Assembly (NCBI GenBank): GCA_009695095.1 | Contig: SIBQ01000019.1 | Coordinates: 1-43,501, forward strand | DNA from: Lacunisphaera sp. | GTDB lineage: Bacteria; Verrucomicrobiota; Verrucomicrobiia; Opitutales; Opitutaceae | Length of the DNA stretch: 43,501 nucleotides | Direction of reading: 5' to 3' | Shown here: in pieces, positions 2,791-32,895 of the stretch | Layout: each line of letters begins with the position of its first letter | Position numbering within the stretch: position 1 is the stretch's first letter | Translations under genes and position numbers: made by a program | The notes under the pieces: model-generated | Told to the model about the DNA's origin: nothing | Seen by the model: only the letters and a program-made list of their open reading frames with translations | Database searches by the model: none

Positions 2791-3705
2791 TTAAGCCGCC
2801 GGCGCGCTAGCCGCGTAGCGCTCGATGAAGGCCTTGCATTCGTCGGTCAGTGGATAACCGAGGAAGCTGGTCGCGGTCGTGAAGAGCCCACGACGCACCA
2901 TGTAATACTTCAACCCGGTCAGCCAGCAGGCGATCGACTCGCCGCCATAGATCCCAAACAGCACTTTCTTCGTCTCAGCCTCCACCGCCCGGGCCTCATC
3001 CCGCTTGCCGGCCTGGAAAAGCGCCACGATCCGGTTGAGCTGGGGCGCCACCGAGGCGGCGCCACCAAACAGGCAGCCATCGTAGCCGGCCTCCAAATAA
3101 TCGAGGCAATGGAATTCGTCGCCGTTGAACAGCTGCAAGCCCGGCTTCTCTGCGCGGGCGGCGAGCGCAATCGCCCGCCGCTCGGGCGAGCCGGAACTGT
3201 CCTTCGCCAGCTGCACCTTCGGCAGCAGGTAAATTTCCTTCAGCCGGGCCTCCGGAATCATCACCGGCCGGTGCCGGCCGAGGTCGTAGATGCCCACCGG
3301 CAAGGGGCTCGCCTCTGCCGCCTCGGTGAAGAGCGCCACAATGCGCTCCGGGGTTGCGTTCATGAAAGTGGCTGGCGCGGCGATGATGGCGTAGTTCGCT
3401 CCGGCCTCAGCGGCGGCGCGGGCGTTATCGAGGATGCGCGGAACAGAGTTGTCGGAAACCTGCACCGCAATCTTCAGCCGCCCACCCGCGGCCTTGACGG
3501 CGGCTTGCGCCAGCCGGCGGCGTTCGCGATCGGGCAGCCACGGCCCCTCGCCGCAGGTGCCGGCCAGGAACAGCCCCTTGATCCCGTCGCGGAGGGCATC
3601 GTGCACCATTCGCTCGACGGAGGGCTCGTCCACCCGGAAGTCGGGGGTGAGCGGCGTCGGCACGGCGGACCAGATTTGCACAGCGGGCACTGGCTTTAGT
3701 TTCAT
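2791..3705 (-). CDS. Dihydrodipicolinate synthase / N-acetylneuraminate lyase family protein
   Basis: 304 aa from ATG at 3705. A TTG six codons upstream is possible but would sit deeper in the divergent promoter. The class I aldolase (beta/alpha)8 barrel of the DapA/NanA family covers the whole protein. Visible landmarks are WSAVPTPLTPD at the N-terminus, GTCGEG (the GTTGE/GSTGE carboxylate-binding loop, with Cys in the second position), GIYDLG with the catalytic Tyr, and VQLAKDSSG with the Schiff-base Lys. True DapA would keep an Arg soon after the Tyr motif and normally sits in lysine-biosynthesis contexts. Here it diverges from a sugar-type regulator and faces catabolic genes, so a 2-keto-3-deoxy-acid or related aldolase/lyase/dehydratase role is more likely. 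The exact substrate is unknown. Ends with TAA. Confidence 0.85.
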   Translation of the reverse strand: MKLKPVPAVQIWSAVPTPLTPDFRVDEPSVERMVHDALRDGIKGLFLAGTCGEGPWLPDRERRRLAQAAVKAAGGRLKIAVQVSDNSVPRILDNARAAAEAGANYAIIAAPATFMNATPERIVALFTEAAEASPLPVGIYDLGRHRPVMIPEARLKEIYLLPKVQLAKDSSGSPERRAIALAARAEKPGLQLFNGDEFHCLDYLEAGYDGCLFGGAASVAPQLNRIVALFQAGKRDEARAVEAETKKVLFGIYGGESIACWLTGLKYYMVRRGLFTTATSFLGYPLTDECKAFIERYAASAPAA

Positions 3706-17336: not shown

Positions 17337-20300
17337 TCAGGTCACTGACGGCTGGGCGTTGCGCACCGCGTCGGCGATCGTCGCCGGCACCACCTCGGCT
17401 TCGCCCTTCGTCTGGTCGAATCGCATGGACAGCGTCTTCGATACGCCGCGCTCCTGCATCGTCACGCCGTAGATGGCGTCCGCCGAGGCGATGGTCGTCT
17501 TGTTGTGGGTGATGATGATGAACTGCGAGTCCTTCACGAACTGCTTCAGCAGATTGGTGAAGCGGTGAATGTTCGACTCGTCGAGCGGGGCGTCGAGTTC
17601 GTCCAGCAGGCAGAACGGCGATGGCTTCACCATGTAGAGTGCAAAGAGCAGCGCCACCGCGGTGAGCGTCTTCTGCCCGCCTGAGAGCAACGTGATGCCC
17701 TTGAGCTTGGTGCCCGGCGGCTGCGCCACGATCTCGATGCCGCTCTCCAGCGGATCCTCGGCGGTCACCAGCTCGATCTCGGCCCGGCCGCCGCCAAACA
17801 AAATCTGGAAGGTGTAGGCAAAATTCTTTCGAATCTGGTCGAAGGTCACCTGAAACTGCCGCAACGAGGTCCCGTTGATGTCCTCGATCGCCTTCAGCAG
17901 CTGCGTCTTCGCCCCGGTCAGGTCGTCGCTCTGCGTCCTCAGAAATTCAAAGCGCTGCTTCAGCTCGGAGTATTCCTCGATGGCCACGAGGTTGACCGCG
18001 CCCATTGCGCCGATGCGCTGGCGCAGCGCCTCCACCTCGGCTTTGATCTCGTCCCAATTGCTCCGATCAAGCGCGGCGAGGTCGGTCTCGGCCGGTTCGC
18101 CCTTCGCCCCCTTCTCCTTCCGGCGCTGCTTCGGCACCGCCTCCGCGGGCGCGACGCCCTCCCCCTCCTCGTCGAGGCCCAGCGCCTTGAGTCCCTCGGG
18201 CTCGTCGTCCGCCCGCCAGAGCAGATGCTTCCAGTCGAGCGCGGCCACGTCGGCTTGAAACTCCCGGGTTATCTCCTCCGCGAGGAATTGGGCACGGGCC
18301 CGGGTCTCGGCCACCTTAACCTCGTGTTTGGTCAGCTCGGTCTGCGAGCTTTCCGCCTCGGTGCGGATGGAAGCCAGTCCGTCCTCCCCGGCCGAAATCT
18401 GCTGCTCAATGGTCTGCAACTCTCCCCGGATCTTCTCGACGGCCGTCAGCGCAATCCCCAGGGTCTTGCCAACCTCACCGGCACGCTCCTTCTCCGTGGT
18501 GGCTTCCCGCTCAAGTGCCGCGACCTGATCCGTCCAAGTGTCCAATTCGGTCTGACGCTGGGTGAGCAGCTCCTCGAGCTGCGCCCGGCGGCGCTCCATC
18601 TCGTACAGACCGCGGTCCAGCATCTCCACCTTCTGGCGGCGCTCGGCCAGCTCCAGTCGGGCCGAGGCGAGGGTTTCCTTCTGCTGGTCGCGCGCGGCAC
18701 GCTTTTCGACGATGGCTGTCTCCGCGGTGTAAATTTTCTGCTTCTGCGCGTCGAGGCCGGACTCGGCCTCCGCCAGCTGCGCCTGCGCCCGGGTCAGGCG
18801 GGACACGGCCTCATCGTGGTTGCGCTTGAGGTTGTTCAGTTCATTCTCCATCCGCGCGAGCCGGCCGGTGGCCTCATCGTGTGATCGCTGGGCGTTTTTC
18901 TCCTCGGTATGGATGGCCGCGGCGTGCTGCGCGGTGGTCAGCACTTCTTTCCGCTTCTGCTCCAGTGATTGCTCGGTGGCGGTCAGCGCGGTGTTAAGCT
19001 GGTCGATGAGAGCGCGCTGCTCGTCGTGGGCCTTCTGGTCCGCCCCGACGCCCTTGGCCGTCTCGCGAAGATCAACCTCGCGCTGTACGATGCTGTTCGC
19101 GGGTTTTTTGTGGTGGCCGCCGAAAATCAACCCGCGCCGGTCCACCAGGTCGCCCTTGGTCGTCGCCACCATCAGGAAGCTGAACGCGGGGTTGGCCCGC
19201 CAGAAATCAATGAACGCCCCGAGGTCATCGGCTATATAGCAGGCGGAGAGCACACTCGCCGCCGGATGCGAGGCGTCGAGATTGGCAATTGCCTCGGTGG
19301 CGGGCCGCAGCCCGGTCGGCAGTCTGGCTCCCTGCTCCCTGCTCCCTGCTCCCCGCTCGGTCACCTGCAGGCACACGCTGCCGATCTTGTCGGCCTCGAG
19401 CTGCGTGAGGATTTTCTGCGCCGTGGCGAGATCGGAGACCGCGATGGCCTCGACCGAGGCGCCGAGCAGCGCCTCGAGGGCCTTGGCGTATTCCGCCTTC
19501 ATCTCCAACCCCTGCGTGATCGGGGCGAATTTCTGCCCGCCACCCAGCCGGCCCGACAGCAACGCCTTGGCGCCCTCGCCGAAGCCCTCCCACTTTTCCT
19601 GCAGTTGCTGCAGCAGTTTCAGGCGGGCGGCCTTCTGGGCCAGGTTGCGGTCAATGTCCTGCAGGTTGCGCTGCGCATCGCGGAATTTTTGCGTGGCGTC
19701 GAGCAGCGCGGCCTGCGTGGCCTGGGCCTCGTTGTTAGAACGGCTCTGGTCGGCACGGGCTTCCTCGACCTTGTCGCGCACCGAGGCAAGGGTCTGCGCG
19801 GCGGCATCCACGGCCGAGCGCACCTCGGCGATCTCGGCCACTACCTGATCGTGCCGGTTTTGGCTCGTGCGGGCGTCGACCTCAAGGCTGGAGCTTTCCG
19901 TGCGATGGCGTGTCCCTGTGTTCTCCAGTTGGGCCAATTGCAATTTGTCCGAGCTGAGTTGTTGCTCGGCCCGGGACAACTCACCCTCCGCCACGGCAAG
20001 CTCGCGGTTGCGGTCCTGGAAAACAGCGTCGGAGCTCCCGAGCAGGCTGAGCTGCACCTGCTTGTCCTGCGCCCCGGTGTCCACCTGTGTGGCGAGCTCC
20101 ATGCGCTGCATTTCCAATTCAGCGAGGTCACCCTGCCCGGATGCGATGCGCTCGGCGAGGCCGGTGCGCTTCACCTGCGCCAGACTCGCGGCGTTCTCGG
20201 CCTGCTCCTTCTGCGAGCGGAGGTCGAAAACCGCCTGCTGGGCGTCCTGCACGCGCTGGTTGAGCGAGCTGCGCGCAAACTTTTTTTCGTCGAGCGAACG

Positions 20301-21098
20301 GGTGCGCGCCTCCAGCGACGTGCGGCGGGTGTCGGCCGCGCTCCGTAGCACGGCAACGCGTCGGTCAAGCTCGGCCAGCGTGGCCTTGAGCTGGCGGTGC
20401 TGGAAATTGCTTTGGGCCAGCGCGAGCTGCCGCAGGCGGAAGCTGAGGCGCTTGTAGCGCACGGCCTTCGACGCCTGCCGCTTCAGTGAGCCGATCTGAC
20501 GGGCGACCTCGATGATGACGTCGGACACGCGGGCGAGGTTCTGCTCGGTGAGCGCGAGCTTGTTCATCGCCTCGCGGCGCTGGCTCTTGTATTTGGTGAT
20601 GCCGGCGGCCTCCTCGAACACCACGCGGCGCTCCTCGGGCTTCGACGACAGGATCTGGTCGATCTGGCCCTGCGCCATGATCGAGTAGCTCGTGTGGCCC
20701 ACGCCGGTGTCCATGAAAAGCTTGTGGATGTCCTTCAGGCGGCAGGGCGATCCGTTGAAGTAATACTCACCCAGCCCGTCGCGCCCGACCCGGCGCATGA
20801 TCTCGATCTCGTGAAAATCACTGCCCAGCTGTTTCTCGCACTCGGTCAGCAGCAGCGCGACCTCTGAAAACTGGGCGGACTTCCTGGTGTCGGCGCCCTC
20901 GAAGATGACATCCTGCATCTTGCCGCCGCGTAGGGCCTTGGCGCTCTGCTCGCCCAGTACCCAGCGGATGGCGTCGGCGATATTGCTCTTGCCGCAGCCG
21001 TTGGGACCGACGATGGCGGTAAAGCCAGGCTGGAAACTGAGGGTGGTGGGGTCGGCGAAGCTTTTGAAGCCGTGGAGTTTTAGCGCCTTAAGATACAT
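17337..21098 (-). CDS. smc: Chromosome partition protein SMC
   Basis: 1253 aa from ATG 21098 (MYLKALKLHGFKSFADPTTL, the canonical SMC start); the frame remains open upstream without similarity. The head has Walker A GPNGCGKS (residues 31-38) and the Q-loop region IMAQGQIDQIL, followed by the N-terminal coiled coil. The hinge lies around residues 520-660 (GAKALLSGRL, MKAEYAKALEALLG, LVDRRGLIFGG), then the second coiled coil, the ABC signature LLSGGQKTLTAVALLFA, and Walker B FCLLDELDAPLDESN. SMC with ScpAB organises and compacts chromosomes; scpA/scpB are not in the window. A four-unit heptanucleotide repeat (19327-19354) encodes a Gly/Ser/Arg/Glu/Gln insert (RGAGSREQGARL) in the hinge region. 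The gene is intact throughout. Confidence 0.97.
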   Translation of the reverse strand: MYLKALKLHGFKSFADPTTLSFQPGFTAIVGPNGCGKSNIADAIRWVLGEQSAKALRGGKMQDVIFEGADTRKSAQFSEVALLLTECEKQLGSDFHEIEIMRRVGRDGLGEYYFNGSPCRLKDIHKLFMDTGVGHTSYSIMAQGQIDQILSSKPEERRVVFEEAAGITKYKSQRREAMNKLALTEQNLARVSDVIIEVARQIGSLKRQASKAVRYKRLSFRLRQLALAQSNFQHRQLKATLAELDRRVAVLRSAADTRRTSLEARTRSLDEKKFARSSLNQRVQDAQQAVFDLRSQKEQAENAASLAQVKRTGLAERIASGQGDLAELEMQRMELATQVDTGAQDKQVQLSLLGSSDAVFQDRNRELAVAEGELSRAEQQLSSDKLQLAQLENTGTRHRTESSSLEVDARTSQNRHDQVVAEIAEVRSAVDAAAQTLASVRDKVEEARADQSRSNNEAQATQAALLDATQKFRDAQRNLQDIDRNLAQKAARLKLLQQLQEKWEGFGEGAKALLSGRLGGGQKFAPITQGLEMKAEYAKALEALLGASVEAIAVSDLATAQKILTQLEADKIGSVCLQVTERGAGSREQGARLPTGLRPATEAIANLDASHPAASVLSACYIADDLGAFIDFWRANPAFSFLMVATTKGDLVDRRGLIFGGHHKKPANSIVQREVDLRETAKGVGADQKAHDEQRALIDQLNTALTATEQSLEQKRKEVLTTAQHAAAIHTEEKNAQRSHDEATGRLARMENELNNLKRNHDEAVSRLTRAQAQLAEAESGLDAQKQKIYTAETAIVEKRAARDQQKETLASARLELAERRQKVEMLDRGLYEMERRRAQLEELLTQRQTELDTWTDQVAALEREATTEKERAGEVGKTLGIALTAVEKIRGELQTIEQQISAGEDGLASIRTEAESSQTELTKHEVKVAETRARAQFLAEEITREFQADVAALDWKHLLWRADDEPEGLKALGLDEEGEGVAPAEAVPKQRRKEKGAKGEPAETDLAALDRSNWDEIKAEVEALRQRIGAMGAVNLVAIEEYSELKQRFEFLRTQSDDLTGAKTQLLKAIEDINGTSLRQFQVTFDQIRKNFAYTFQILFGGGRAEIELVTAEDPLESGIEIVAQPPGTKLKGITLLSGGQKTLTAVALLFALYMVKPSPFCLLDELDAPLDESNIHRFTNLLKQFVKDSQFIIITHNKTTIASADAIYGVTMQERGVSKTLSMRFDQTKGEAEVVPATIADAVRNAQPSVT
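19327..19354. repeat. Heptanucleotide tandem repeat inside smc
   Basis: Four consecutive 7-nt units on the plus strand: GCTCCCT three times, then GCTCCCC. In the smc frame (minus strand) they encode part of the insert RGAGSREQGARL within the hinge. Since 7 is not a multiple of 3, gain or loss of one unit would shift the smc frame. Confidence 0.85.
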
Positions 21099-21309
21099 TG
21101 AGCGTAAACGGCAGACTAGAGGCACCGCGTTTCCACGGTGCAATGGAAAAAGTGTCCTCCTCCCTTCAGAATACCATCCTTTCCCGTCACTTTTGAGCTG
21201 GCCAAACGGCCAATCCAGTTCCAACGACAGCCGGAAATCAGGACGAGGTGGAGCGCGGCCTCCGGACGATCTGCACCCGTACGGAGCCCGGGTTCCATCC
21301 ACTGCCACC

Positions 21310-22746
21310 TCATTTGTGATCCCACGGCAGCTTGATCTGTAGTTTCGGGTATTTCCAAATCCGGACGACACTGAACATCTTGCCTGGATTGAGGATGCCG
21401 CGCGGGTCGAGCGCCCGCTTGACCGCCTGCATCGCCCGCACCTAGGCCGGATTGTGCTGAAGCCGGAGAAACGGGGTCTTGGCCAGACCGATGCCGTGCT
21501 CACCGGAGATGGCTCCATCGAGCGCCACGACCGCTTCCATCAGCCGCTGCACCGCCGTCTCGGCCGCGCGGGTCTCTCCGGCGTGGTCCCGGTGATACAT
21601 GATATTCACGTGCAGGTTGCCGTCGGCGAGGTGGCCGAAGGTGGGAATCGGCAGCCGGGTCTCGCGCTTCAACCGGTTGAGAAAACGGGCAAAGCGCTCG
21701 TAGTGGCGCATCGGCACAACGACGTCCTCGTTGAGCTTGGCGTCGCCCAGCTCGAACATGGCCCCGGAGCACTTGCGGCGCACGGTCCACAGTGCTTCCG
21801 CCTCGGTCCGGGTGCGTGCCTCCTTGAAAGCCAGGGTGCTCGTCCGCGCCCAGGCCAGCACTGCCGACCGGGTCTCTTTCACCTCGCCGGCTGAGCCCGC
21901 CAGCTCGAGCAGGATCACTGGCCGACCGGCCTGGCCGGGAAACACGGTCTTCCCGGTGGCCCGCTCGGCGCAGAGCACGCTCTCGCGATCGAGGAACTCG
22001 CAGATGGCTGGCTGCACACGCGACCGGAAAAGCTTTCGAGCCGCACCCGGCGCGGCGACTTCGCTGGTAAACGAAGTGAGCAGGGTCCAGCGCGCCGCCG
22101 GTTGCGGGATGAGCTTGAGCACCGCGCCGGTCACCACGCCGAGCATGCCCTCACTGCCGATCCAGAGATCGCGCAGGTTGAAGCCCACGGCAAATTTCTT
22201 GGTAGCCGTCCCCCACTTCACCAGCTCGCCCGTCGGCAGAAACCCGCGCAGGGCGATGACAAAATCGCGCGTCACGCCGTATTTCCCGCCATGCATACCG
22301 CCGGCATTGCACGCGATATTGCCCCCAATGGTGCAGTATTCTTTTGAGGAGGGATCGGGCGGATAAAACCACCCTTTCGCCGCGGCGGCGCGTTGCACCG
22401 TCGCGGTGGTCGCGCCGGCTTCGACGTGCGCCAGGCCGGCGTCGCCATTAATCCGCACCTTTTTCAACTTCAGCATGTCGATGACTCAGCCGCCGCGCAC
22501 CGGCGCCGCCGAGCCCATCAACGTCGTGCCGCGTCCGCGCACTGTGACGGGGACGCGATGTTTGTTCGCCAGCATCAACGCCGGGCCAATGTCTTTCTCT
22601 GTCTGCGCCGTGATGACGGCCACGGGCAGAAAGGAAATTTTGCTGCTGTCGAACGAGGCGGCCCAGCAACCCTTCGCCGAGATATCAACGCGCGCTCCCG
22701 GGCGCCTTTTCAGCTGTCGGGTGGCGAGCGCGTGCGACGAGTTCAT
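21310..22746 (-). pseudogene. GlcD-like FAD-binding oxidoreductase (2-hydroxyacid dehydrogenase family) with two in-frame stops
   Basis: The frame runs from ATG 22746 to TGA 21310 (478 codons, normal for the family) but is broken by TGA at 22486 (codon 87, in PVRGG-stop-VIDML; Trp fits, TGG to TGA) and by TAG at 21442 (codon 435, in LQHNPA-stop-VRAMQAVKRALDP; Glu fits, GAG to TAG). FAD_binding_4 features: VTVRGRGTTLMGSAAPVRGG, PPDPSSKEYCTIGGNIACNAGG, GSEGMLGVVTGAVLKL. The C-terminal FAD-oxidase domain has FGHLADGNLHVNIMY and SGEHGIGLAKTPFL, then RGILNPGKMF. These enzymes oxidise D-lactate, glycolate or similar acids and pass electrons to quinone or an Fe-S partner. Without readthrough no full protein is made. 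It is 55 bp upstream of, and divergent in function from, the lipid gene. Confidence 0.87.
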
Positions 22747-22801
22747 GGGAGAGCAAGTTAAATGGACCCGCCCAGAGCCGTGCAAGTGCACGATGAACCG
22801 C

Positions 22802-25800
22802 TCAGGTTCCCGGAGCGTCCTTCGTCAGCTCAATTGCAAGGGTGCGGCAGGCCTTCAAGTCGATCTTGCCGGTGCCGAGCATCGGGATTTTGTCGACGCA
22901 CCGGATGAGGCGCGGAATCCATAGGTTGGGCAGGCCCGCCTCGAGCAGCTTTGTCCGCAGTTGCTCGGTGGTGACCTCGTGCCGGGTCAGCAGGACGATG
23001 GCCTCGCCCTTGGAGGGATCCGGCACGCCGGTGATGATCGCCACCGGGCCGTCAGACTGGTCCCAGCCAAAAATCTCGATGATGCGCTGCTCCACTGTGC
23101 CGTGTGGCACCATCTCGCCGCCGATCTTGGAAAAGCGAGACAACCGGCCCTCGATGTAGAGGAACCCGTCGTCGTCGAAGCGCCCGAGGTCGCCGGTGAT
23201 AAACCAGCCGCCCTTCAGCGCGGCGGCGCTTTTCTCCTCGTCCTTGAGGTAGCCTGGAAAAATATTGGGGCCGCGCAGCCAGAGCATGCCGGTGGAGGTC
23301 AACGGCAGCTCCTCGCCGGTATCGGGATCCATGATGCGGGCCGACGTGCCGGGCAGCAGGCGGCCGACTGCGCCGGTCTTCTTGCCCAGTTGCGGTATCG
23401 TCGTCGAGGTGGTGATGGGCGGGTGATACTGGTTGATGCACGCCGCCGGCGTCGTTTCCGTGAGCCCGTAACCCTGCAAGATCTCAATGCCGAACAACGA
23501 GAGGAAGCCGTCGTAGAGGTCGATAGGCAGCTTTTCCGCCCCGGTGACCACAAGGTTGAGCGACCTGAGTTCCTCCCGGGTGGCCTTTTTGAGGAACGGG
23601 CGGACGAAGGTCGGCGCTCCGATCAGCACCGTGGCTTTTTCCTGGTGAATCGCCTCGATGATTTTCTTGGTGTCAAGGGGGCTGGGCAGAGTTATCACGC
23701 GGCAGCCGCGCAGCAGCGGATACCAGAGCGTGACGGTGAAGCCGAAGGAATGGAAAATGGGCAGGCACCCGATCATGGTCGCGGTGTTTGGCAGAATGGA
23801 GAGCGATGAAATCTGCGCACAGTTGGCTAAAATGTTGCGATGCGTCAGCACCACGCCCTTCGGTTCGCCGGAGCTGCCGCTGGTGAACAACAGGGCCGCC
23901 TCGGTGCGGTCACCCTCGCGTGGCAGCCCCAGCAGCGCCGCCAGCCACTGATTGGGCAACAGGTGGGCGGCCAGCAACCACGGCACGATGGCGCGCTTGC
24001 CCCCTGCAGCCTCGATTTCCTTATTCAGGTCGAGGGTGTTGTCGGGAAACGGAAAAGTAGGGATCTTGGTCCGCATAGCGACGGCCGTGAGCACGGTCCG
24101 GATCTCCCCCACCCGGAGGCTGGCCTCGATGGCGGTGCGGCCGGCAGTGAAGTTCAGGTTGACCGGCACTTTGCCGGCGCAGGCCACAGCCAGGTTGGCG
24201 ATGTGGGCGCCGGCGCCGGACGGCAGCACGATGCCCACGCGCTCGTCCGGAATGGTCCGCCGGATGCGCCGCGACAACGCGATGGCTACGCCGAGCAGTT
24301 GCGCCGCGGTCAGGGCGCGCCGCTCGCCGGTGCGATCCACGAGCACCTCGTGCCACGGGCGCTTGGCCAGCGAGCGCACCGCCTCCCGGGCCAGATGGCG
24401 GCGCAGCACCGGACGCTGCTGGAAGGCCTCCTCGCCGAGATCGAGCATGGCCTTGCGCACGCGGCCCGTGTCGGCCTGGTCGAAAGGCAGCGGCGATCCA
24501 AACACCACGCAGACCGGCGTCGGCATCAGCCGGGGCGATTTCCAGAGGTATTTGTTACCGGCAAAGGAGTAGATCGAGCCCCAAAGCCCGTCGAGCGCCG
24601 CCGGCACCACCGGGACGCGGGCCTGCCGGGCCATCGCCTCGAAGCCGGGCTTCAGCTCCATCAACTGTCCCGTACGCGAGATGGCGCCCTCGGGAAAGAC
24701 GCACACCAGCTCGCCGCGCTCCAGAGCCTCGACGGCGAACCGGATGCCCTTCAACCGCTTGTTGGGTGCCACAGGAATCACCCCCGCGGCGCGGAAAAGG
24801 TATCGTACGGTCTGGCTGCGCGCCAATCCGGCGAACGCTAGGAAGCGCAACGGGCGCGGCGAGGCGATCTGCATCACCACGGCATCGACGTAGGACAGGT
24901 GGTTGCACAGGATGAGCGCGCCGCCCGCGGGAACGTGCCGGTGCCCGAACACCTTCACCCGGTAGAAAACCGGGCCGATGAGCCGCATTACCGTGCAAAC
25001 CGTTTGATGCGGCAGGTGCCAGAGCCCGTAGCAAAGCATCACGAGCGTGCTGGCCGCCAGGGCGAAAAGCTGCGTCGCCGCATCCCAGTTCAGCAGCCCC
25101 TCGCCGGCAAAAATCACAAACAGACCGTTGGCCGCCAGACCCGCGATGCTATCGAGCAGGCCGATCGCCGCCAGCACCCGGCCGCGCCGGTGGTCGCCCG
25201 ATGTTTCCTGAATAAAGGCATAGAGCGGCACGAGGAACAACCCCGAAGCAAACCCCGCCACGATGAGCCAGATGTGAAAGGCCTGGTTGGCGTGGCCGAT
25301 CAGGGCCATGGCTAGCAGCGACACCAGCAGCAGCAGGCCGCCGATCGGGGCCAGCCCGAGTTCCACCCCGCGGCGCGAGAGCAAGCCCGCAGCCAGGTTG
25401 CCGAACATGGTGCCGACACCCAGCAATAGTGCCATGATGCCCGCTGCCGTGGCCGAGCCGACGCCGCCGTCTTCGTGCAGGCTGGCGCCCATCTGGATCA
25501 GCAGCACCAGCAGGTAGCCTCCGATGGCGTAGAAAAACATGATGCCAAAGGTCGCGCGCAGCAACGGCCGGTCGCGCCAGAGCTCCTTGATCTGCGCGCG
25601 ATGCCGCCAGAACAGCGCCAGATGGAACGGCTCGGTGTTCTGGGCCTTGGTCCGCGCCACCAGTTGGAAAACCAGCCAGGACAGCAATGCCATCACCGCC
25701 AGCACCACGGCGGTGAGCAACGCGCCCTGCCAGGCGGCCCCGGTTCCCGCCACGCCCCCGCGAATCTCGCGGGCCACCAGGACGTCAAACACCTTACCGC

Positions 25801-26272
25801 CGGCGAAAATGCCCGTGAGAATGGCCGTGACTGACAGCATTTCCATGACGCCCACCGCACGCGATAGTCCGGCGGCATCCACCAGTTCGCGCAGAACCCC
25901 GCGCTTGGCTGGGGCAAAGATGGTCGCCTGCAGTGCGAGCAGTACAAAGCACGCCACGGCGCCCCAAAGCGACTGCAGCCACAGCGCCGCGACCAGCAGC
26001 ACCATGATGCCGGCCTGCGACCCCAGCGACGCGTTGAGCACGGTGCTTTTGGGGAAACGGTCGACCACCCAGCCCGCCACGGGGGAAAAGAGGATGAACG
26101 GCGCGATCAGCAGCGCACCCAGCAGGCCGCGGATCAGATTGGCGTCCGTGTCCGGCAGCACGCCGGGATACTGGGCCAGCGCGATGAGCATGAACCTGGC
26201 GGCGTTGTCATTGAAGACAACCTGGGCCTGAGCGACCATCAGCGCGGTCAGCGAAACTCGGGGTGATTTCAT
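22802..26272 (-). CDS. MFS transporter / 1-acylglycerophosphate-type acyltransferase / acyl-CoA (acyl-ACP) ligase fusion, Aas-like
   Basis: 1156 aa from ATG 26272 (MKSPRVSLTALMVAQAQVVFND); the open frame upstream lacks similarity. Residues about 1-420 are a 12-helix MFS domain like LplT (lysophospholipid flippase). Residues about 430-640 are a PlsC acyltransferase with the NHLSYVD (HX4D) catalytic box and FPEGAISRTG. Residues about 660-1156 are an AMP-binding ligase with FTSGSSGEPKGVVLTHRN, QGYGLTETTPAA and the C-terminal GRFDDDGFLYIEGR and KIGGE hinge. In enterobacteria LplT and Aas are two proteins that import and re-acylate lysophosphatidylethanolamine; here all three activities are joined. 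The protein acts in the inner membrane in phospholipid repair or recycling. The gene is intact and apparently monocistronic. Confidence 0.92.
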   Translation of the reverse strand: MKSPRVSLTALMVAQAQVVFNDNAARFMLIALAQYPGVLPDTDANLIRGLLGALLIAPFILFSPVAGWVVDRFPKSTVLNASLGSQAGIMVLLVAALWLQSLWGAVACFVLLALQATIFAPAKRGVLRELVDAAGLSRAVGVMEMLSVTAILTGIFAGGKVFDVLVAREIRGGVAGTGAAWQGALLTAVVLAVMALLSWLVFQLVARTKAQNTEPFHLALFWRHRAQIKELWRDRPLLRATFGIMFFYAIGGYLLVLLIQMGASLHEDGGVGSATAAGIMALLLGVGTMFGNLAAGLLSRRGVELGLAPIGGLLLLVSLLAMALIGHANQAFHIWLIVAGFASGLFLVPLYAFIQETSGDHRRGRVLAAIGLLDSIAGLAANGLFVIFAGEGLLNWDAATQLFALAASTLVMLCYGLWHLPHQTVCTVMRLIGPVFYRVKVFGHRHVPAGGALILCNHLSYVDAVVMQIASPRPLRFLAFAGLARSQTVRYLFRAAGVIPVAPNKRLKGIRFAVEALERGELVCVFPEGAISRTGQLMELKPGFEAMARQARVPVVPAALDGLWGSIYSFAGNKYLWKSPRLMPTPVCVVFGSPLPFDQADTGRVRKAMLDLGEEAFQQRPVLRRHLAREAVRSLAKRPWHEVLVDRTGERRALTAAQLLGVAIALSRRIRRTIPDERVGIVLPSGAGAHIANLAVACAGKVPVNLNFTAGRTAIEASLRVGEIRTVLTAVAMRTKIPTFPFPDNTLDLNKEIEAAGGKRAIVPWLLAAHLLPNQWLAALLGLPREGDRTEAALLFTSGSSGEPKGVVLTHRNILANCAQISSLSILPNTATMIGCLPIFHSFGFTVTLWYPLLRGCRVITLPSPLDTKKIIEAIHQEKATVLIGAPTFVRPFLKKATREELRSLNLVVTGAEKLPIDLYDGFLSLFGIEILQGYGLTETTPAACINQYHPPITTSTTIPQLGKKTGAVGRLLPGTSARIMDPDTGEELPLTSTGMLWLRGPNIFPGYLKDEEKSAAALKGGWFITGDLGRFDDDGFLYIEGRLSRFSKIGGEMVPHGTVEQRIIEIFGWDQSDGPVAIITGVPDPSKGEAIVLLTRHEVTTEQLRTKLLEAGLPNLWIPRLIRCVDKIPMLGTGKIDLKACRTLAIELTKDAPGT

Positions 26273-26369: not shown

Positions 26370-26390
26370 GGCGGGATCGGTGATCCCGCC
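26370..26390. repeat. REP-like palindrome
   Basis: GGCGGGATC-GGT-GATCCCGCC is a perfect 9-bp stem with a 3-nt loop, preceded by TGTAG. It lies between the start of the fusion lipid gene (26272) and the end of the TOPRIM-like gene (26502). The shape is typical of dispersed REP elements of GC-rich bacteria. A second TGTAGGG followed by a GC-rich, partly palindromic stretch occurs at 28291, on the other side of the two-gene module. Confidence 0.55.
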
Positions 26391-26501: not shown

Positions 26502-27140
26502 CTACCCTGTCCGCCAGCTCCGCAAATCCCGCGCCAGCGAGCCGAAGCCCTGCGGAAAATCATTCTCCAGCCGGCGCAAGTCGCCGTGGTGGCGTGTGAC
26601 TTCCTGCACTGCGCGACTGATCTCGTGCGGCAGCGACGGCCGCTCCGTGCCATAGACGCGCCACTTCAACTCGCGGCGCGTATAGGGTGGCCGGCCAATT
26701 GCCTGTCCGGCCACCCACGCGGCTTCGGTGATCGAAGTGTCGCGACCGCAGAGCAGCCACGCCTCCAAGGCCGGCACGCACACGCCGACTGCGCGCAACA
26801 CCCGGTCGCGGCCTTGCGCCGGCGGCAGGCGCTTGGTCGCACGCCGGAAGACCGCGCGTAACCGGCAGATCCGGCAGAAGGGATGATGATAGCCCGGCGC
26901 CTCGTGCTCCGCTGTGTGGACCGGCGAGTCGTCCGAGTCCACCACCACCACGAGGCCGTCGGCGTTGGTGGTGAAATGCAAATGCCGGATAACCGGCGGC
27001 AGCACCTGCTCGACCGACGGCCAGCCGCGCGCCCGCAGCGTCGCCTGCACCTGAGTGAACGGTCCGCCCAGGACGTATTCCACCAGCACGCGCAACGCCG
27101 CCTCGTCCGCCGGCGATTCGCTGAGCAGCACGATGTTCAT
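26502..27140 (-). CDS. TOPRIM-like (DUF4276-type) putative nuclease, partner of the upstream ATPase
   Basis: 212 aa from ATG 27140 (MNIVLLSESPADEAAL); an in-frame start seven codons upstream is less likely. TOPRIM hallmarks: an N-terminal strand ending in Glu8 (LLSESPADEAAL, the E-x-P-x-D-E pattern of TOPRIM nucleases) and the DxD strand GLVVVVDSDD (Asp68, Asp70, Asp71). A further conserved-looking VPALEAWLL (Glu126) is typical of DUF4276-type proteins. A FCRIC pair (Cys89, Cys92) next to two His could bind a metal. The gene follows the ATPase gene by 90 bp on the same strand. Pairs of an OLD-like ATPase with a separate TOPRIM protein occur in phage-defence systems. The nuclease role is inferred from motifs; a primase-like or regulatory role is possible. 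Confidence 0.65.
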   Translation of the reverse strand: MNIVLLSESPADEAALRVLVEYVLGGPFTQVQATLRARGWPSVEQVLPPVIRHLHFTTNADGLVVVVDSDDSPVHTAEHEAPGYHHPFCRICRLRAVFRRATKRLPPAQGRDRVLRAVGVCVPALEAWLLCGRDTSITEAAWVAGQAIGRPPYTRRELKWRVYGTERPSLPHEISRAVQEVTRHHGDLRRLENDFPQGFGSLARDLRSWRTG

Positions 27141-27150
27141 CGGAGGGTCG

Positions 27151-27227
27151 CCACGAACCACCCCAAATACACAAAAGAAAAAGCCAGAGATACCCTCATA
27201 TTTTTGAGTCTTTCGGGTATTTCGTGG
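27151..27227. repeat. Inverted-repeat element between the ATPase and TOPRIM-like genes
   Basis: CCACGAA (27151-27157) pairs with TTCGTGG (27221-27227), and AAATAC (27165-27170) pairs with GTATTT (27217-27222), so nearly the whole 90-bp gap is one imperfect, A+T-rich palindromic element. The TTTCG...GTATTTCGTGGT style resembles intergenic repeats seen in many environmental bacterial genomes. It may also fold in the mRNA and tune expression of the second gene. Confidence 0.55.
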
Positions 27228-27230
27228 TGA

Positions 27231-28238
27231 CTACTCTCCCGGCACGCCGCCGAGGATGCCGCTATACCAGAGATCGCCGAGGTGTGCCTCTTTCATCAGT
27301 TCCGACAGATCGGCGCGCTCCGCCAGCCGCATGAAGGTCGCGGTGTTGCCGTGCTTGCTGGCCAGCACCACCTCCTCCGGATGATCTTTGAACTGGTCCA
27401 AAAGGTAGGGGGAATGGGTCGTCGTAAAGACCTGCACCGCCGGACGCGACTCGCCAACATCCTGCGGGTAGCTCAGCCGGTAGAGCGCATCGCGCACCTC
27501 GCGCAGCATCCGCGGATGCACGCCGCGGTCGGCCTCCTCGAGACACACGATGCTCGGCGGCGACGGCGCATGAGCCAAAGTGAGGATCGCCAGCAGATAA
27601 AGCGTGCCCTGCGCGAGGCTGTCGGCTGCGATCACTTCGTTGCCCTCCGCCAGCCGCGCAATCAGCTCCACCCGGCCCTCACCCGCTTCGCAAAAATCCA
27701 GCCCGCCAAATTCCGGCGTGATCCGGCAGAATTCCACGACCAACCGGGCCATCGCCTCTGGTGCCTGCTCACGGCGCAGTGCGAGCACGGCGGCGAGATT
27801 GCCGGCGTTGGAAGCCAACTCGGCACCCTCCGTGAGTTTGCCAGGCATGGCCATGGCGTAATGATCGAACAAAAAGGCCCGGATACCCTGCAATTTCGTC
27901 CGCAACTCCGCCCACTGCCCCTCGCCCGCGATGCCGGCTGGATGGTCCACCACGAGGAGATTGCAGACGAGCTCGTCGGAGCTGCAGCCAAGTGTCACGC
28001 GCACATCCTGGAACGGCGGACTGAAGTGAAACTCGATCTGCGGGCCCTCGGGCTTCTGCCCCTTCAGCTCATGGGCATGCACTACCGGGAGGCCCGAGAG
28101 CGTTCGTAACCGCAGCAGCGCCTGGATGAGGCTCGTCTTGCCGCTACCGTTGGGGCCGATGAACAGGTTGAACGGTCCCAGCTGCACCGCCGCCGAGCGC
28201 AGCGCCTTGAAATTCCTGAACTGGACCGCAGCGATCAT
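27231..28238 (-). CDS. AAA/ABC-type ATPase (AAA_21, RecF/OLD-like), first gene of a two-gene module
   Basis: 335 aa from ATG 28238 (MIAAVQFRNFKALRSAAVQL); the frame is open upstream but without similarity. Features: Walker A IGPNGSGKTS (residues 28-35 are GPNGSGKT), a central lid region without a long coiled coil, the signature-like DSLAQGTLYLLAILTLA, Walker B SIVCLEEADRGVHPR, and the switch histidine in VFTTTHSPYLLDQF. This is the compact head-only form of OLD/RecF-type ATPases. Its C-terminus has no TOPRIM domain; that activity seems to be supplied by the next gene. Function inferred: nucleotide-dependent sensor or clamp controlling the partner. Alternative: a stand-alone predicted ATPase of unknown role. 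Ends with TAG. Confidence 0.85.
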   Translation of the reverse strand: MIAAVQFRNFKALRSAAVQLGPFNLFIGPNGSGKTSLIQALLRLRTLSGLPVVHAHELKGQKPEGPQIEFHFSPPFQDVRVTLGCSSDELVCNLLVVDHPAGIAGEGQWAELRTKLQGIRAFLFDHYAMAMPGKLTEGAELASNAGNLAAVLALRREQAPEAMARLVVEFCRITPEFGGLDFCEAGEGRVELIARLAEGNEVIAADSLAQGTLYLLAILTLAHAPSPPSIVCLEEADRGVHPRMLREVRDALYRLSYPQDVGESRPAVQVFTTTHSPYLLDQFKDHPEEVVLASKHGNTATFMRLAERADLSELMKEAHLGDLWYSGILGGVPGE

Positions 28239-28381
28239 GGCTGGCAGCCTTGCACATTGGAGAGAGTACGACAAGCCGTCTTGGCTCGACTGTAGGGCCG
28301 CCGCTGGTCGCGGGCCGCTCAACACAGAAAAGGCGACCCGGCAACTAGCGCCAACCCCACCCATACCATCAGCAAGTTGAC

Positions 28382-28679
28382 AACCCGCGGGTGAAATTAT
28401 TCGGCCAGCCCGGATCACCCCGGCGCCCAAGCTTGGTGGCGGCAACTACATTGCCGCGCGCCTTGGTCATTTTGAGAAATTTGCCGATGAGCGACTGCTG
28501 CGGCCGTCGCCTAGACATCCGCTGTGTCGAAGAACTTCGGGGCCCGACACGCCGGCTGCGCGCAGCATGGCCAGCGCCGCCGCGTCGGTCCTGTCGCCCC
28601 ACCCCGCCCCGAGTTGCCCGGTGCCGGGCCTGACTTCGCTGACTTTCCATCCCGACTTGGCAAAAATGCACGTCTTCAT
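28382..28679 (-). pseudogene. Aldo/keto reductase, N-terminal fragment with several frameshifts
   Basis: Reading the minus strand from ATG 28679 gives MKTCIFAKSGWKVSEV and GQLGAGWGDRTDAAALAMLRAA. The frame then changes to KFFDTADV, changes again through a missing base to GDGRS, and changes once more to LIGKFLKMTKARGNVVAATK and LGRRGDPGWPNNFTR. Together these reproduce the first 100 or so residues of an aldo/keto reductase, including the cofactor/catalytic strand FFDTADVYGDGRSE. The remaining two thirds of the enzyme are absent. At least three indels plus truncation mean a dead gene, next to the ATPase/TOPRIM module. Confidence 0.75.
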
Positions 28680-29313: not shown

Positions 29314-32300
29314 TCAATTTTCCGGCGCGAGGAAATCCGTGAGTTTGGACGTGGCGATCCGGGCGAAGAAGACCGACAGGTCGGGCTTGGCGAGCGAGCC
29401 GCCGAGGATGACCGGCGCCTGGGTCTTCGCGTAGCCGAGTTCGTCCCGCGCGCCGTCAAGCAACTTGAGTTTGCCGAGCAGTTGCTCGATTTTGCCCCGG
29501 CCGGCGAACGAAAGCGAAACGCTGAGCGGCTGCTCGAGCAGCGGCTTGTCCGCCACGTAGGTCACCGTGCCTTTGCCGAGCAAACGGATGTCCGGCGTGA
29601 CCAGGATGATGTCCTCCAACATCATGTTGAGCGACTCATCCCGGATCAGCCGGACGTTCAACTGGTCGTAGTTCAATTCGCCCACGCTCTGCGCAAGCTG
29701 GTCCACAAAGTAGGCCTGCCCCGCCACTTTCTCCGCCGCTTTGCTCACTTTTTCCGAGCCGAAGATGGAGCCGAGCACCGAGGCGCTCAGCTCGACCGCC
29801 TTGGAGGTCATCGACACCTTGCTGGTCGTGCGCTGCAGTCCGCGGAAAATCCCCTGCCGGCTGGTCAGTCCGAACTGGCCGCGGGTGCGCTCCAGAGTCC
29901 GGTCAATGGTCTCGCCGTTGCCGGCGATAAGGCCGGTCACGTTGAACACGCCCTCGACCGTTGCGGGCTTGCCGGGCTCGATCGCCTTGAAAAGCCGGCC
30001 GGCGTCAAATTCGGTCAGCGAAAAATTGCCGCCCAGTTGATAGGGCTGGGCACCGCCGGTGAACTTCACCTCGCCCTGCGCGGCAAACCGGCCTTTTTCC
30101 CCGAAGGCCGCCTCCAGTTTCAGCAGCGAGACCCGCGTCGTTTCAATGGCGACCGAGCCGTTCAACCCGGTCATGGCCCACTCGGTGCCGCGAGTAACCG
30201 ACTTGACGTCCAGCACCAGCTGGCCGTTGAACCGCGACCAGGCCGGCACGGTGTCGGCCGGCACTTTGGCGTCCGCGGCCGCTGGCGCCGGTGTGGCTAC
30301 ACCCGGGGCGGGCGAGGCCAAAAAAACACCCAGCACAGACCAGGCGTCGGCCAGCTCCACGTGCTCCCCCGTCAATTTCCCGTCGAGCCCAAATACGCCC
30401 GCCGCCGGGGTCAGCTCCAGCGAGAAATTCAAATCTGAGCGCTGGCCGGCGCGGTCCAGCAGCAGTGGCGCCTGCACCGACAGCCGGTCGCCCTGGGCGA
30501 CGGCGCGAAAACTCAAGTTGGCCACGGGCAGGGTCAGGCCGTCATCACTGGCGACCAAGCCGTTCACCGTCAGGCGGGCTTCCAACTGGCTGGCCCCGCC
30601 GGCGCCAAGGCCGGGGCTGGCCGGCGCGCCGAAGGCGGCGCGAATCTCGCCGCTCGCGCGTCCGGCCGAGACCGTTTGCGTGCCGGCGAAGAGCGGCTGG
30701 GTGGCAAGCGCGGGAACTTCCAGGTTGAAAGTCAGCGTCCCGCGCCAGCCTGCCTCAGCCGACCGCGTCGCCTCGCCTTTGAAGGTGAGCAAAGTCGCGC
30801 CCGCGGAAGTCCGGACCGCCACGTCGCCGGTCTGGATCTTCGCCGCGGCTCGGCTCGTTACCTCGATCACCGGCTGCGCCTCGATGCCCAAGCCAGTTAG
30901 CGCGGGTTGTCCGTCCCGCGTGAGGGAGAGGTTGGCCAGCCTGAAGGGTGCCGCGGCACGCAAGGTCAGTTGCTCGCCGTTGGCCGCGAGCACGAACTCG
31001 CCTTGCGTCACCACCCCGCCCAGTCTGGCGCCGGATTGGTTCAAGGGCAGGCGGTAGAGCGGAATGCGACCCAGTGTAAAGCGCACCAGATCAGCGGTGG
31101 CCCTCTCACCGGTCGTGGCGCGACGCGTGGCCAGATCGAGACTGAACGGGCGCAGCGACACGGCCTGAAACAAGGCAACGCCGCCACCATCGGTCACCTG
31201 GGTGTTCAAACGGCGCAGCTCGATAGTGCTGCCGGTCAGCGTGAAGTCGGCCTCACCGGTTGCCTTGACGTGGCCCAGCGGCTGCCACGGCGCGAGCAGC
31301 TGGGGCAGGTCGGCGGTGCAACTGGCCGAGACGGCGATGGGCGGATCCGGCAAAATCGGCACTGTGACACTGGCTTGAGCAGTGAACGAGTCGCTCGCGG
31401 GTGTTTTGACGGTGAGTTCACTGATTTCGGCCTGCAGCTCCTGCTTGGTCAGCACCGCGGCGACGTTCAGCGTGATATCGGCCTTGGACAGCAGCAGTTC
31501 GCCGTGTTGTACGATAGTCAGCTGGGCAATGTGCAGCGGCTGCACAGCGCGGAGCAGCAGACGGTCGGTCTTGCCGGTAACCGAAAACTGACCGGTGATC
31601 ATTCCGCCCGATAAATCGGCCACATGCACGAAGGGGCGCACCCACGCGAGCGGGAGGCCGTGGAGTTGCAGGTTCAGGGCTTCACCCGGCACCGGGCCCC
31701 CCGCTTGCAGGCGGCGTTTCTTTAAATTAAATTCAAGTGCACCGTTCGTCGACAACTCAAGCACCGGCTGCGTGCCGTCAATCCGCAGGTTGAACTGGTG
31801 CAAGCGGCCGATGCCTGCCGACTCGGCGAGATCAAATTGCGCCTCCAGCTTCACCGGTCCAATGGCCCGGAGCGCGGGCTCAACGGCCTCCAGCCGGCTG
31901 ACATCCGCCGACAGGCTGCCCTGCAAACCGGCGCCGGAGGTTGCGGGGTTAAAGGCAAAGCGTCCCCTGCCACGAACGTCGATGTCTGGCAACGAGCCGC
32001 CGAGGAAGAACGGTTCCAGCTGCGCCGTGCGAGCTTTCAGCGTCCACTCGCCGATAAAATCCTTCTGGCCGGCGGGCAGCGTGGCGCGTCCCGCCAGCAC
32101 GTTTTCCGTCGCACCGCGCATAAGTGTGTCGATATTTATTGAATAATTTTCCCCGGCGGCATCCCTCACCAGCTCCGCGGTAATCTTCAACTGGCTCTGC
32201 TCCGGTAAATTCCTGCCCTCCGCGTCCACCACCGCGCTCAGGCCGACGCGGCGGAAGGTGTGTTGCGCCGTCTGGGTCGCCCGCAGGCTGAGCTGGGCAT

Positions 32301-32895
32301 GAAGCGTGGTGACCCGGGCCTCCGCCCCCGGGTTTTTCAAAACAGCCACGAGGAGCAGCTCGCCTTCCTGATCCGGGGCAAACCTGCCCCCGGTGATTTT
32401 ATACCCGGCCTCGACTGGCGGCTTGTCGGGCGCACCGGGCAGCAACGCGCGGCCCTCGATCCGGACGTCATCGAGTACCAGCTCAACCGGCAGGTGAAGC
32501 TGCGCCAGCAGGCCCGGGACTGCGACGGGTGCGCCGGCTGCCGCCGCCTGCGTCTGCGCCGGAGAAAGCCGGCTGGCGTCCACCACGAGTCCGCTGCCCT
32601 CGAGCCGGCGGATGGTCAACCGGCGGTTGATTAGCAACTGCCACGGCGAATAGTCCGACTCCAGGCGATCGAGCTGCACGCGGAGCCCGCCTTTTTCCAC
32701 TTGCACGCCCCGCAGCGTGACACTCGAAAAACCGACCGAGACCGACGCAAGTTCGAGCTTGAGGCCCGGCGTGGAGCCGGTGGCCCGCCGCACCGCCCAG
32801 CGCTGGACGGCGGGAGTCAAGACCAGCGCGAGACCCGCGGCGCCAAGGACGCCAATGGCCCCGAGGGTGATAAGCAGCGGGCGAGCGGGCTTCAT
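29314..32895 (-). CDS. AsmA-like large envelope protein
   Basis: 1193 aa. A single N-terminal membrane anchor (residues about 7-28: LLITLGAIGVLGAAGLALVL) is followed by VQRWAVRRATGSTPG, LELASVSVGFSSVTLRGVQV and a very long beta-repetitive body with amphipathic strands, typical of AsmA/TamB-like bridge proteins. The C-terminal 250 residues carry the AsmA features (FNVTGLIAGNGETIDRTLE, GQFGLTSRQGIFRGLQ, INLDIILV-like MLEDIILVTPDIRLLGKGT). Such proteins span the periplasm and move phospholipids or assist outer-membrane assembly. The gene is intact, downstream of the efflux operon on the same strand but separated by a hairpin. It is probably its own transcription unit. Confidence 0.8.
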   Translation of the reverse strand: MKPARPLLITLGAIGVLGAAGLALVLTPAVQRWAVRRATGSTPGLKLELASVSVGFSSVTLRGVQVEKGGLRVQLDRLESDYSPWQLLINRRLTIRRLEGSGLVVDASRLSPAQTQAAAAGAPVAVPGLLAQLHLPVELVLDDVRIEGRALLPGAPDKPPVEAGYKITGGRFAPDQEGELLLVAVLKNPGAEARVTTLHAQLSLRATQTAQHTFRRVGLSAVVDAEGRNLPEQSQLKITAELVRDAAGENYSINIDTLMRGATENVLAGRATLPAGQKDFIGEWTLKARTAQLEPFFLGGSLPDIDVRGRGRFAFNPATSGAGLQGSLSADVSRLEAVEPALRAIGPVKLEAQFDLAESAGIGRLHQFNLRIDGTQPVLELSTNGALEFNLKKRRLQAGGPVPGEALNLQLHGLPLAWVRPFVHVADLSGGMITGQFSVTGKTDRLLLRAVQPLHIAQLTIVQHGELLLSKADITLNVAAVLTKQELQAEISELTVKTPASDSFTAQASVTVPILPDPPIAVSASCTADLPQLLAPWQPLGHVKATGEADFTLTGSTIELRRLNTQVTDGGGVALFQAVSLRPFSLDLATRRATTGERATADLVRFTLGRIPLYRLPLNQSGARLGGVVTQGEFVLAANGEQLTLRAAAPFRLANLSLTRDGQPALTGLGIEAQPVIEVTSRAAAKIQTGDVAVRTSAGATLLTFKGEATRSAEAGWRGTLTFNLEVPALATQPLFAGTQTVSAGRASGEIRAAFGAPASPGLGAGGASQLEARLTVNGLVASDDGLTLPVANLSFRAVAQGDRLSVQAPLLLDRAGQRSDLNFSLELTPAAGVFGLDGKLTGEHVELADAWSVLGVFLASPAPGVATPAPAAADAKVPADTVPAWSRFNGQLVLDVKSVTRGTEWAMTGLNGSVAIETTRVSLLKLEAAFGEKGRFAAQGEVKFTGGAQPYQLGGNFSLTEFDAGRLFKAIEPGKPATVEGVFNVTGLIAGNGETIDRTLERTRGQFGLTSRQGIFRGLQRTTSKVSMTSKAVELSASVLGSIFGSEKVSKAAEKVAGQAYFVDQLAQSVGELNYDQLNVRLIRDESLNMMLEDIILVTPDIRLLGKGTVTYVADKPLLEQPLSVSLSFAGRGKIEQLLGKLKLLDGARDELGYAKTQAPVILGGSLAKPDLSVFFARIATSKLTDFLAPEN

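Follow-up and report, generated by a model that had tools for sequence, protein, structure and literature searches.

Split pairs of an ATPase and a TOPRIM protein are usually taken as anti-phage systems, and two adjacent genes of this description in Lacunisphaera sp. raise the question of whether they serve as immunity genes, travelling or resident, or do other work for the cell. The window analysed here is the whole of contig C19 (43 501 nucleotides), part of a 2.14 Mb assembly in 41 contigs. The initial annotation read the locus as a two-gene OLD/RecF-type ATPase with a separate TOPRIM-like partner, forming a candidate defence module in an accessory islet. Both ORFs lie on the minus strand where it placed them, encoding 335 and 212 aa, in the order P1, 90 nt of spacer and P2. 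The features used below, in window positions, are the following.

17340-21200: chromosomal SMC gene; matches the PADLOC mad3 model
21442-22791: FAD-linked oxidase beside the Aas-like gene; two ORFs, 21442-22476 and 22486-22791
22802..26272, minus strand: Aas-like gene, downstream neighbour; MFS, acyltransferase and AMP-ligase domains; recurrent beside the pair
26502..27140, minus strand: P2, partner gene; 212 aa, TOPRIM-like/DUF4276-like motifs E8-D12-E13, D68-x-D70-D71 and E126-x-W128
26865..26906, minus strand: P2 codons 79-92; invariant H79, H86, C89 and C92, a probable zinc site with putative metal binding
27141..27230: P1-P2 spacer; 90 nt with an imperfect hairpin inside
27231..28238, minus strand: P1, ATPase gene; 335 aa, SMC/OLD-type ABC ATPase (AAA_21/AAA_15)
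28381..28679, minus strand: aldo/keto reductase remnant upstream of P1; pieces of 69% and 40% identity
29314..32895, minus strand: large AsmA-like gene, upstream neighbour; also close to this site in relatives, whether or not they have the pair

The products of 22802..26272 and 29314..32895 are what we take to be Aas-like and AsmA-like proteins; a Pfam search with the latter at 1e-5 gave no match. The FAD-linked oxidase gene appears to be interrupted in this assembly. The best named records for P2 come from Lacunisphaera sp. and Opitutaceae bins (82-86% identity in P2). Comparison of the window with five congeners gave NG86 dN/dS values of 0.14-0.21 for both P1 and P2, which places both genes under purifying selection.

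Pfam assigns P1 to AAA_21 (1.5e-23) and AAA_15 (6e-17), and the ATPase motifs noted initially were confirmed: Walker A (GPNGSGKT), a signature-like segment (SLAQGT), Walker B (CLEE) and a switch histidine (His275). An alignment of 55 orthologues shows the key positions to be kept: K34, G211 and H241 never vary, residue 235 is glutamate in 51 and aspartate in four, and residue 275 is histidine in 53. A search with Foldseek using the predicted model (pLDDT 89, pTM 0.88) gave Rad50 (2.5e-11), retron PtuA-type ATPases (3e-11) and a Thermus OLD protein (1.2e-10), and a profile search gave OLD 6p74 (2.2e-10). The chain stops with the ATPase fold, at residue 335. In PADLOC, whose output carries no curated cut-off, P1 matched HEC-01A (PDLC04183; 4.7e-37), PDC-M07A (2.5e-28) and AriA (6e-23); the first match identifies it as an ATPase of HEC-01A type and, together with the AriA match, bears out the two-gene description. 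NCBIfam scores were 86.9 bits for MAD3 against a cut-off of 420 and 34.7 bits for RecF against a cut-off of 172. PADLOC names on ATPases prove little, since the SMC protein of the window itself matches mad3 at 2.6e-67 and AriA at 2e-15; such matches are weak evidence of defence and need context. The SMC match to the mad3 model is also a possible source of false MADS calls.

TOPRIM domains are defined by a conserved glutamate after the first strand and a DxD motif after a later one. The corresponding P2 residues E8, D68 and D70, already singled out in the initial annotation, are invariant in 60 of 60 orthologues, as are D12, E13, E126 and W128; D71 is kept in 59. The predicted model (pLDDT 86, pTM 0.83; 21 sequences) places E8 after the first strand (residues 2-7), D68-x-D70 after strand 62-68 and E126 after strand 116-122, an order that fits a TOPRIM domain. 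Structure prediction had been named as a check on the fold: motif order and predicted secondary structure agree with it, and Foldseek supplied no confirmation. No significant match to the P2 model was found in the PDB or among viral models, no TOPRIM protein is named among the best 50 PDB matches, and a phage primase at E 0.18 is the only TOPRIM-type name among the viral matches listed.

Family models reach P2 poorly. At E<=1 neither Pfam nor NCBIfam matches the window protein, and none of the 60 orthologues matches DUF4276 (PF14103) at that level, so that P2 falls outside the family as Pfam gathers it; neither DUF4276 nor a TOPRIM family occurs among the Pfam matches of the 60. In PADLOC, the window P2 scored 0.0036 with mad4 and 0.059 with HEC-01B (PDLC04202), and the latter model matched 29 of the 60 orthologues at E<=1 (best 9e-6). 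No PADLOC match of these orthologues is named AriB, from a library that may contain no AriB model.

Between D70 and E126 lies a further set of invariant residues, H75, H79, H86, C89 and C92 (60/60), the two cysteines belonging to the FCRIC segment, which was rightly called unusual. With the distance between the histidines loosened to 3-9 residues, the pattern H-x6-H-x2-C-x2-C occurs in all 60 orthologues and in none of 27 partner proteins from relatives (a set with one truncated protein, one wrong-strand reading and one gene counted twice). Judged by this pattern, H79, H86, C89 and C92 probably bind zinc. The sole PDB profile match of P2, HNF4-alpha at 0.51 over the CRxC segment, was taken as chance.

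Of 60 distinct loci, 59 have P1 and P2 side by side in the same orientation (L050, on the same contig as L077, was excluded from the count). The two are separate ORFs in all 59 loci that hold both and overlap by 4 bp in 25 of these. Locus L037 has an open P2 frame before the Aas-like gene with no P1 upstream, and its genome (G005, 590 contigs) gave no P1 match. Within Opitutaceae the P2 profile finds matches in 37 of 49 genera: 164 of 252 genomes have one, or 108 of the 165 good genomes, and 161 of the 164 have it once; a few matches are fragments. No match was found in the other 88 (57 of the good ones), among them four genomes of the genus of the window (G004, G009, G012 and G016). Absence is mostly joint: P1 is missing (E<=1e-20) from 19 of the 20 P2-lacking genomes tested out of the 88. 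G004, which lacks P2, has kept part of P1. With about a third of the family genomes lacking it, some of them with an empty site, the pair is not essential; it is dispensable. A second ATPase match was seen in genome G412.

Beyond the family no match to P2 turned up. A draw of 387 genomes across the phylum contained P2 in 28, all Opitutaceae, and the ~350 genomes of other families had no match; listing the draw by kinship brought out nine more members of Opitutaceae without P2. No relatives of P2 were found in plasmid and phage collections, and 18 pattern matches in viral contigs yielded no confirmed case. A search of literature listings turned up no paper on the P1-P2 pair.

The chromosomal site recurs. 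In the 53 loci whose flank measures 3 kb or more, the Aas-like gene follows the pair directly on the same strand in 39 and occurs somewhere in the stretch in 45; it is not immediately downstream in 14. Among all 60 loci, whose flanks are unequal, the FAD-oxidase was present in 23, the AsmA-like gene in 25 and the SMC gene in 11, and seven, some of them short stretches, show none of the neighbours sought. In the window the pair sits among SMC, FAD-oxidase, lipid and efflux genes, and PADLOC at 1e-5 gave no match for six of the seven neighbours scanned, the seventh being SMC. Of 21 genomes lacking the pair and having an Aas match, 12 loci were fetched: the AsmA-like gene stands directly before the Aas-like gene in six, other genes lie between them in three and a short ORF in one, and the AsmA-like gene was not found in two. 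At two loci of the genus of the window (L147 in G009 and L148 in G012), other genes occupy the place of the pair between these neighbours, including an ORF that we presume to be fucosidase-like. L148 also has an aldo/keto reductase ORF there, and a remnant of such a gene adjoins the pair in the window; the pseudogene reported beside the pair (28381-28679) is real.

Quick trees were built for 29 of 30 genomes, G064 being left out with P1 matched in pieces only. Tree distances correlate between rpoB and P2 (Spearman 0.69), between rpoB and P1 (0.50) and between P1 and P2 (0.58), each value higher than any from 2000 permutations. The rpoB tree has seven of 26 splits in common with P2 and six with P1, against 0.2 expected by chance and a maximum of two in 200 shuffles of the P2 labels; P1 and P2 have five in common. 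The descent of the pair is largely vertical. Most splits disagree between the three trees, which leaves room for transfer within Opitutaceae. Rates were compared over 190 pairs of 20 genomes chosen from those with Aas nearby. Mean identity was 55% for P1, 68% for P2 and 64% for the Aas-like protein; P2 exceeded P1 in all 190 pairs and Aas in 149, and P1 exceeded Aas in eight. A conserved P2 beside a faster P1 would fit an effector with a constant target and a sensor that meets changing triggers.

The recurrent synteny and the largely vertical signal led us to reject an accessory islet: the pair was found in one family only, is usually present once per genome and keeps company with lipid, transport and SMC genes. 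A mobile islet fares no better, given no plasmid, phage or viral-contig match (the search of the loci covered genes other than transposases and integrases). A survey of neighbourhoods had been proposed as a test of the defence reading; the adjacency of P1 and P2 came out as expected, and the usual context proved to be housekeeping-like.

Palindromes had been offered as marks of the islet. One with 9-bp arms does exist at 26370-26390 (the search pattern was composed after it had been spotted), and the P1-P2 spacer of the window holds a hairpin with a z score of -4.25. Their role as boundaries is not supported, since a scan of 59 loci met comparable hairpins at 58 places other than the P1-P2 spacer. 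Ungapped hairpins occur in nine of the 14 loci with a spacer of at least 80 nt. In 876,823 bases the CACGAAATACACGAAA-type motif was matched eight times, always within the P1-P2 spacer (four spacers), and the TTTCGTGTATTTCGTGGT-type motif was likewise found only there (eight matches, four spacers). Palindromes of sequence families that differ between species were seen in the spacers of the window, L032, L035 (by folding only), L036, L038, L039, L049, L067, L071 and L074; L034, L040, L041 and L072 score weakly or not at all. The elements look as if they had been swapped at one place. A special spacer RNA was discarded as an explanation, as the arms change in sequence from one species to the next and the spacer is missing from many loci.

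Relatives of P1 outside Opitutaceae provide the link to a known kind of pair. Thirteen regions around such ATPases were fetched, three from one search and the full ten outside genomes of another, and the partner motifs were read by eye; in 12, the next ORFs carry vEG.tE, DxD and ExEAW-like motifs, split over two overlapping ORFs in L123 and L127. In the opposite direction, DUF4276 and mad4 models picked out 16 genes, and an ORF carrying Walker A lies upstream of 13 of them, the exceptions being a wrong-strand reading (L133), a gene at a contig edge (L140) and one whose upstream ORF lacks Walker A (L142). Ten partners were scanned, seven beside ATPase relatives plus L138, L143 and L144. Six of the seven (L119, L122, L124, L125, L129 and L130) match HEC-01B strongly and also match PF14103, five above the cut-off; the seventh (L121) has weak PDC-B matches only and a sub-threshold OLD-like TOPRIM match. 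L138 and L143 match HEC-01 models, and PF14103 by construction, having been found with it; the L144 partner is mad4.

Alignment of the P2 family with hhalign gave probabilities of 84% to the DUF4276 members L138/L141/L143, 84% to L121 and 53% to L129/L130, groups assembled by hand and tiny (three, one and two sequences), with E8, D68/D70 and E126 in register; reversed controls reached at most 3%. The main DUF4276 group (ten sequences), a VEGGGE group (three) and mad4 (two; 0.2%) stayed below 1%. L123, L126 (the same gene as L136), L127, L133, L137, L142 and L145 were excluded from the groups. P2 is thus probably a remote DUF4276-type relative beyond the reach of the Pfam model, as far as such alignments can tell. 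The earlier suggestion that P2 looks closer to DUF4276 holds in this form: DUF4276/HEC-01B-type genes follow most of the distant ATPase relatives and hhalign reaches some members. On these two grounds the pair looks like a divergent split module of an ATPase and a DUF4276-type partner. At the thirteenth of the fetched loci, from another family of the same order (L118 in G098, ~3370-3694), a P2-like protein of 108-109 aa follows the ATPase without its middle part: the SESEADE start and the YGTE...FPLGF end are kept, DxD, the H/C site and E126 are missing, and the adjoining ATPase frame is open. This is either real degradation or an assembly fault.

RecF and RecR offer a partial parallel, an SMC-type ATPase head with a zinc site and TOPRIM domain in a separate protein, as RecR carries both. 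However, P1 falls far short of the RecF cut-off and NCBIfam gives nothing for P2 at E<=1. MADS likewise combines an ATPase (mad3) with a small partner (mad4), which P2 matches at 0.0036, but the P1 score is well below the MAD3 cut-off, the hhalign probability of P2 to two mad4 proteins is 0.2%, and no other MADS component was found among the seven neighbours scanned, so the gene set is not that of MADS. The closest counterpart is HEC-01, a PADLOC candidate whose make-up, read here from the scans, is a HEC-01A ATPase and a HEC-01B DUF4276-type partner: there are two adjacent genes in the same order, P1 matches HEC-01A and the partner motifs are in the same register. P2 differs in its weak match to HEC-01B and its invariant H/C site, and the pair in its restriction to one lineage. 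Several HECs, including HEC-06, are antiviral according to the accessible portion of PMC12988326, which holds nothing on HEC-01.

In OLD classes 1-3 the ATPase and TOPRIM domains are fused in one chain, unlike the separate P1 and P2. Class 4, to which PARIS is assigned (accessible portions of PMC10568477 and PMC12796447), is closer, with AriA and the TOPRIM(-like) nuclease AriB on separate genes; in PARIS, an AriA hexamer holds AriB until a trigger comes (available sections of PMC12409363). P1, however, fits HEC-01A better than AriA, and P2 has the extra H/C site and no AriB-named match (with an AriB model perhaps missing from the library). Class 5, Cran1, resembles the pair as an OLD-type system kept across one lineage: the available text of PMC12796447 describes it as conserved in Sulfolobales, impossible to delete and seemingly not antiviral. 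Its example shows that conservation of this sort may go with a role outside defence. Cran1 is a single fused protein, whereas P1 and P2 are split and missing from a third of Opitutaceae genomes.

We propose, with a probability of about 0.6, that P1 and P2 work together as a nuclease of the OLD/HEC-01 kind, made of two proteins and gated by ATP, that has long resided in Opitutaceae. The ATP-gated, metal-dependent activity is one that we infer by analogy with PARIS (PMC12409363) and OLD proteins (PMC10568477), as set out in the accessible parts of these sources. P1, an SMC-like ATPase head, would dimerize on ATP and sense a DNA end, a phage protein or a nucleotide state. P2 would be a small DUF4276-type TOPRIM-like nuclease in which E8/D12, D68/D70 and E126 hold catalytic Mg2+ ions, with a structural zinc site (H79, H86, C89 and C92) added in the stretch from the DxD to the final acidic motif. 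P1 may restrain P2 or bring it to its substrate, and P2 would be activated by ATP turnover or by binding of the trigger. Long residence, mostly at one site and mostly by vertical descent, points to surveillance that stays with the lineage instead of travelling.

Two roles for such a unit can be set side by side. A defence role is plausible, and a chromosomal, perhaps abortive, anti-phage system comes close to even odds: P1 would sense a phage trigger and free or activate P2, which would cut a nucleic acid (such as tRNA, the target of AriB) so that the cell stops, the system being kept by descent. The relatives found are candidate defence pairs of HEC-01/DUF4276 type, the pair is dispensable (88 of 252 genomes and 57 of the 165 good ones have no P2) with the AsmA-like gene directly before Aas in half of the fetched pair-lacking loci, and the presumed sensor is less conserved than P2 in every genome pair, as an arms race would give; AriA/AriB supply a precedent for the mechanism (PMC12409363, available sections). 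It sits less well with confinement to one family without phage, plasmid or viral relatives, with a housekeeping-like site and largely vertical trees, with neighbours that, SMC apart, lack PADLOC matches, and with a P2 more conserved than the adjacent Aas protein in 149 of 190 pairs. The restriction to one family and the recurrent site, together with the single match in 161 of 164 genomes, the presence in 108 of the 165 good genomes and in 37 of 49 genera, and the rpoB-P2 agreement (0.69, reached in none of 2000 permutations; seven of 26 splits against 0.2 by chance), would suit a cellular role. The pair might then have been recruited to maintain the genome, to check RNA quality or to control the cell cycle, much as archaeal Cran1 seems to act outside defence (PMC12796447, available text). 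We hold such a role to be a tentative alternative, as a third of the family, including G004, G009, G012 and G016 of the same genus, does without the pair and its relatives are defence candidates.

In a bolder form of the cellular reading, a DUF4276/HEC-01-type pair, elsewhere a scattered defence candidate, might have been captured early in Opitutaceae, have gained a zinc-binding insert in the TOPRIM-like subunit and now serve genome or RNA surveillance as a counterpart of the non-defence Cran1, a history that we regard as possible but less likely than not. It is improbable that P2 is no TOPRIM nuclease at all and that its acidic motifs are look-alikes in a different Rossmann-like metal enzyme or in a zinc protein with a regulatory task; the silence of Foldseek and the lack of DUF4276 or TOPRIM among the Pfam matches of the orthologues would be explained, but not the hhalign link to DUF4276-type partners with motifs in register, set against the reversed controls, nor the matching gene order beside the same kind of ATPase or the invariance of E8, D68, D70 and E126.

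An ATPase with a DUF4276-type partner is a known kind of pair; notable here are its residence in one family and the H/C site. The invariant H/C site offers a target for mutagenesis in a TOPRIM-like partner that differs from its relatives. A pair that is family-wide, mostly inherited, dispensable and mostly held at one site would allow a direct test of whether modules of this kind are retained as chromosomal immunity or put to other work.
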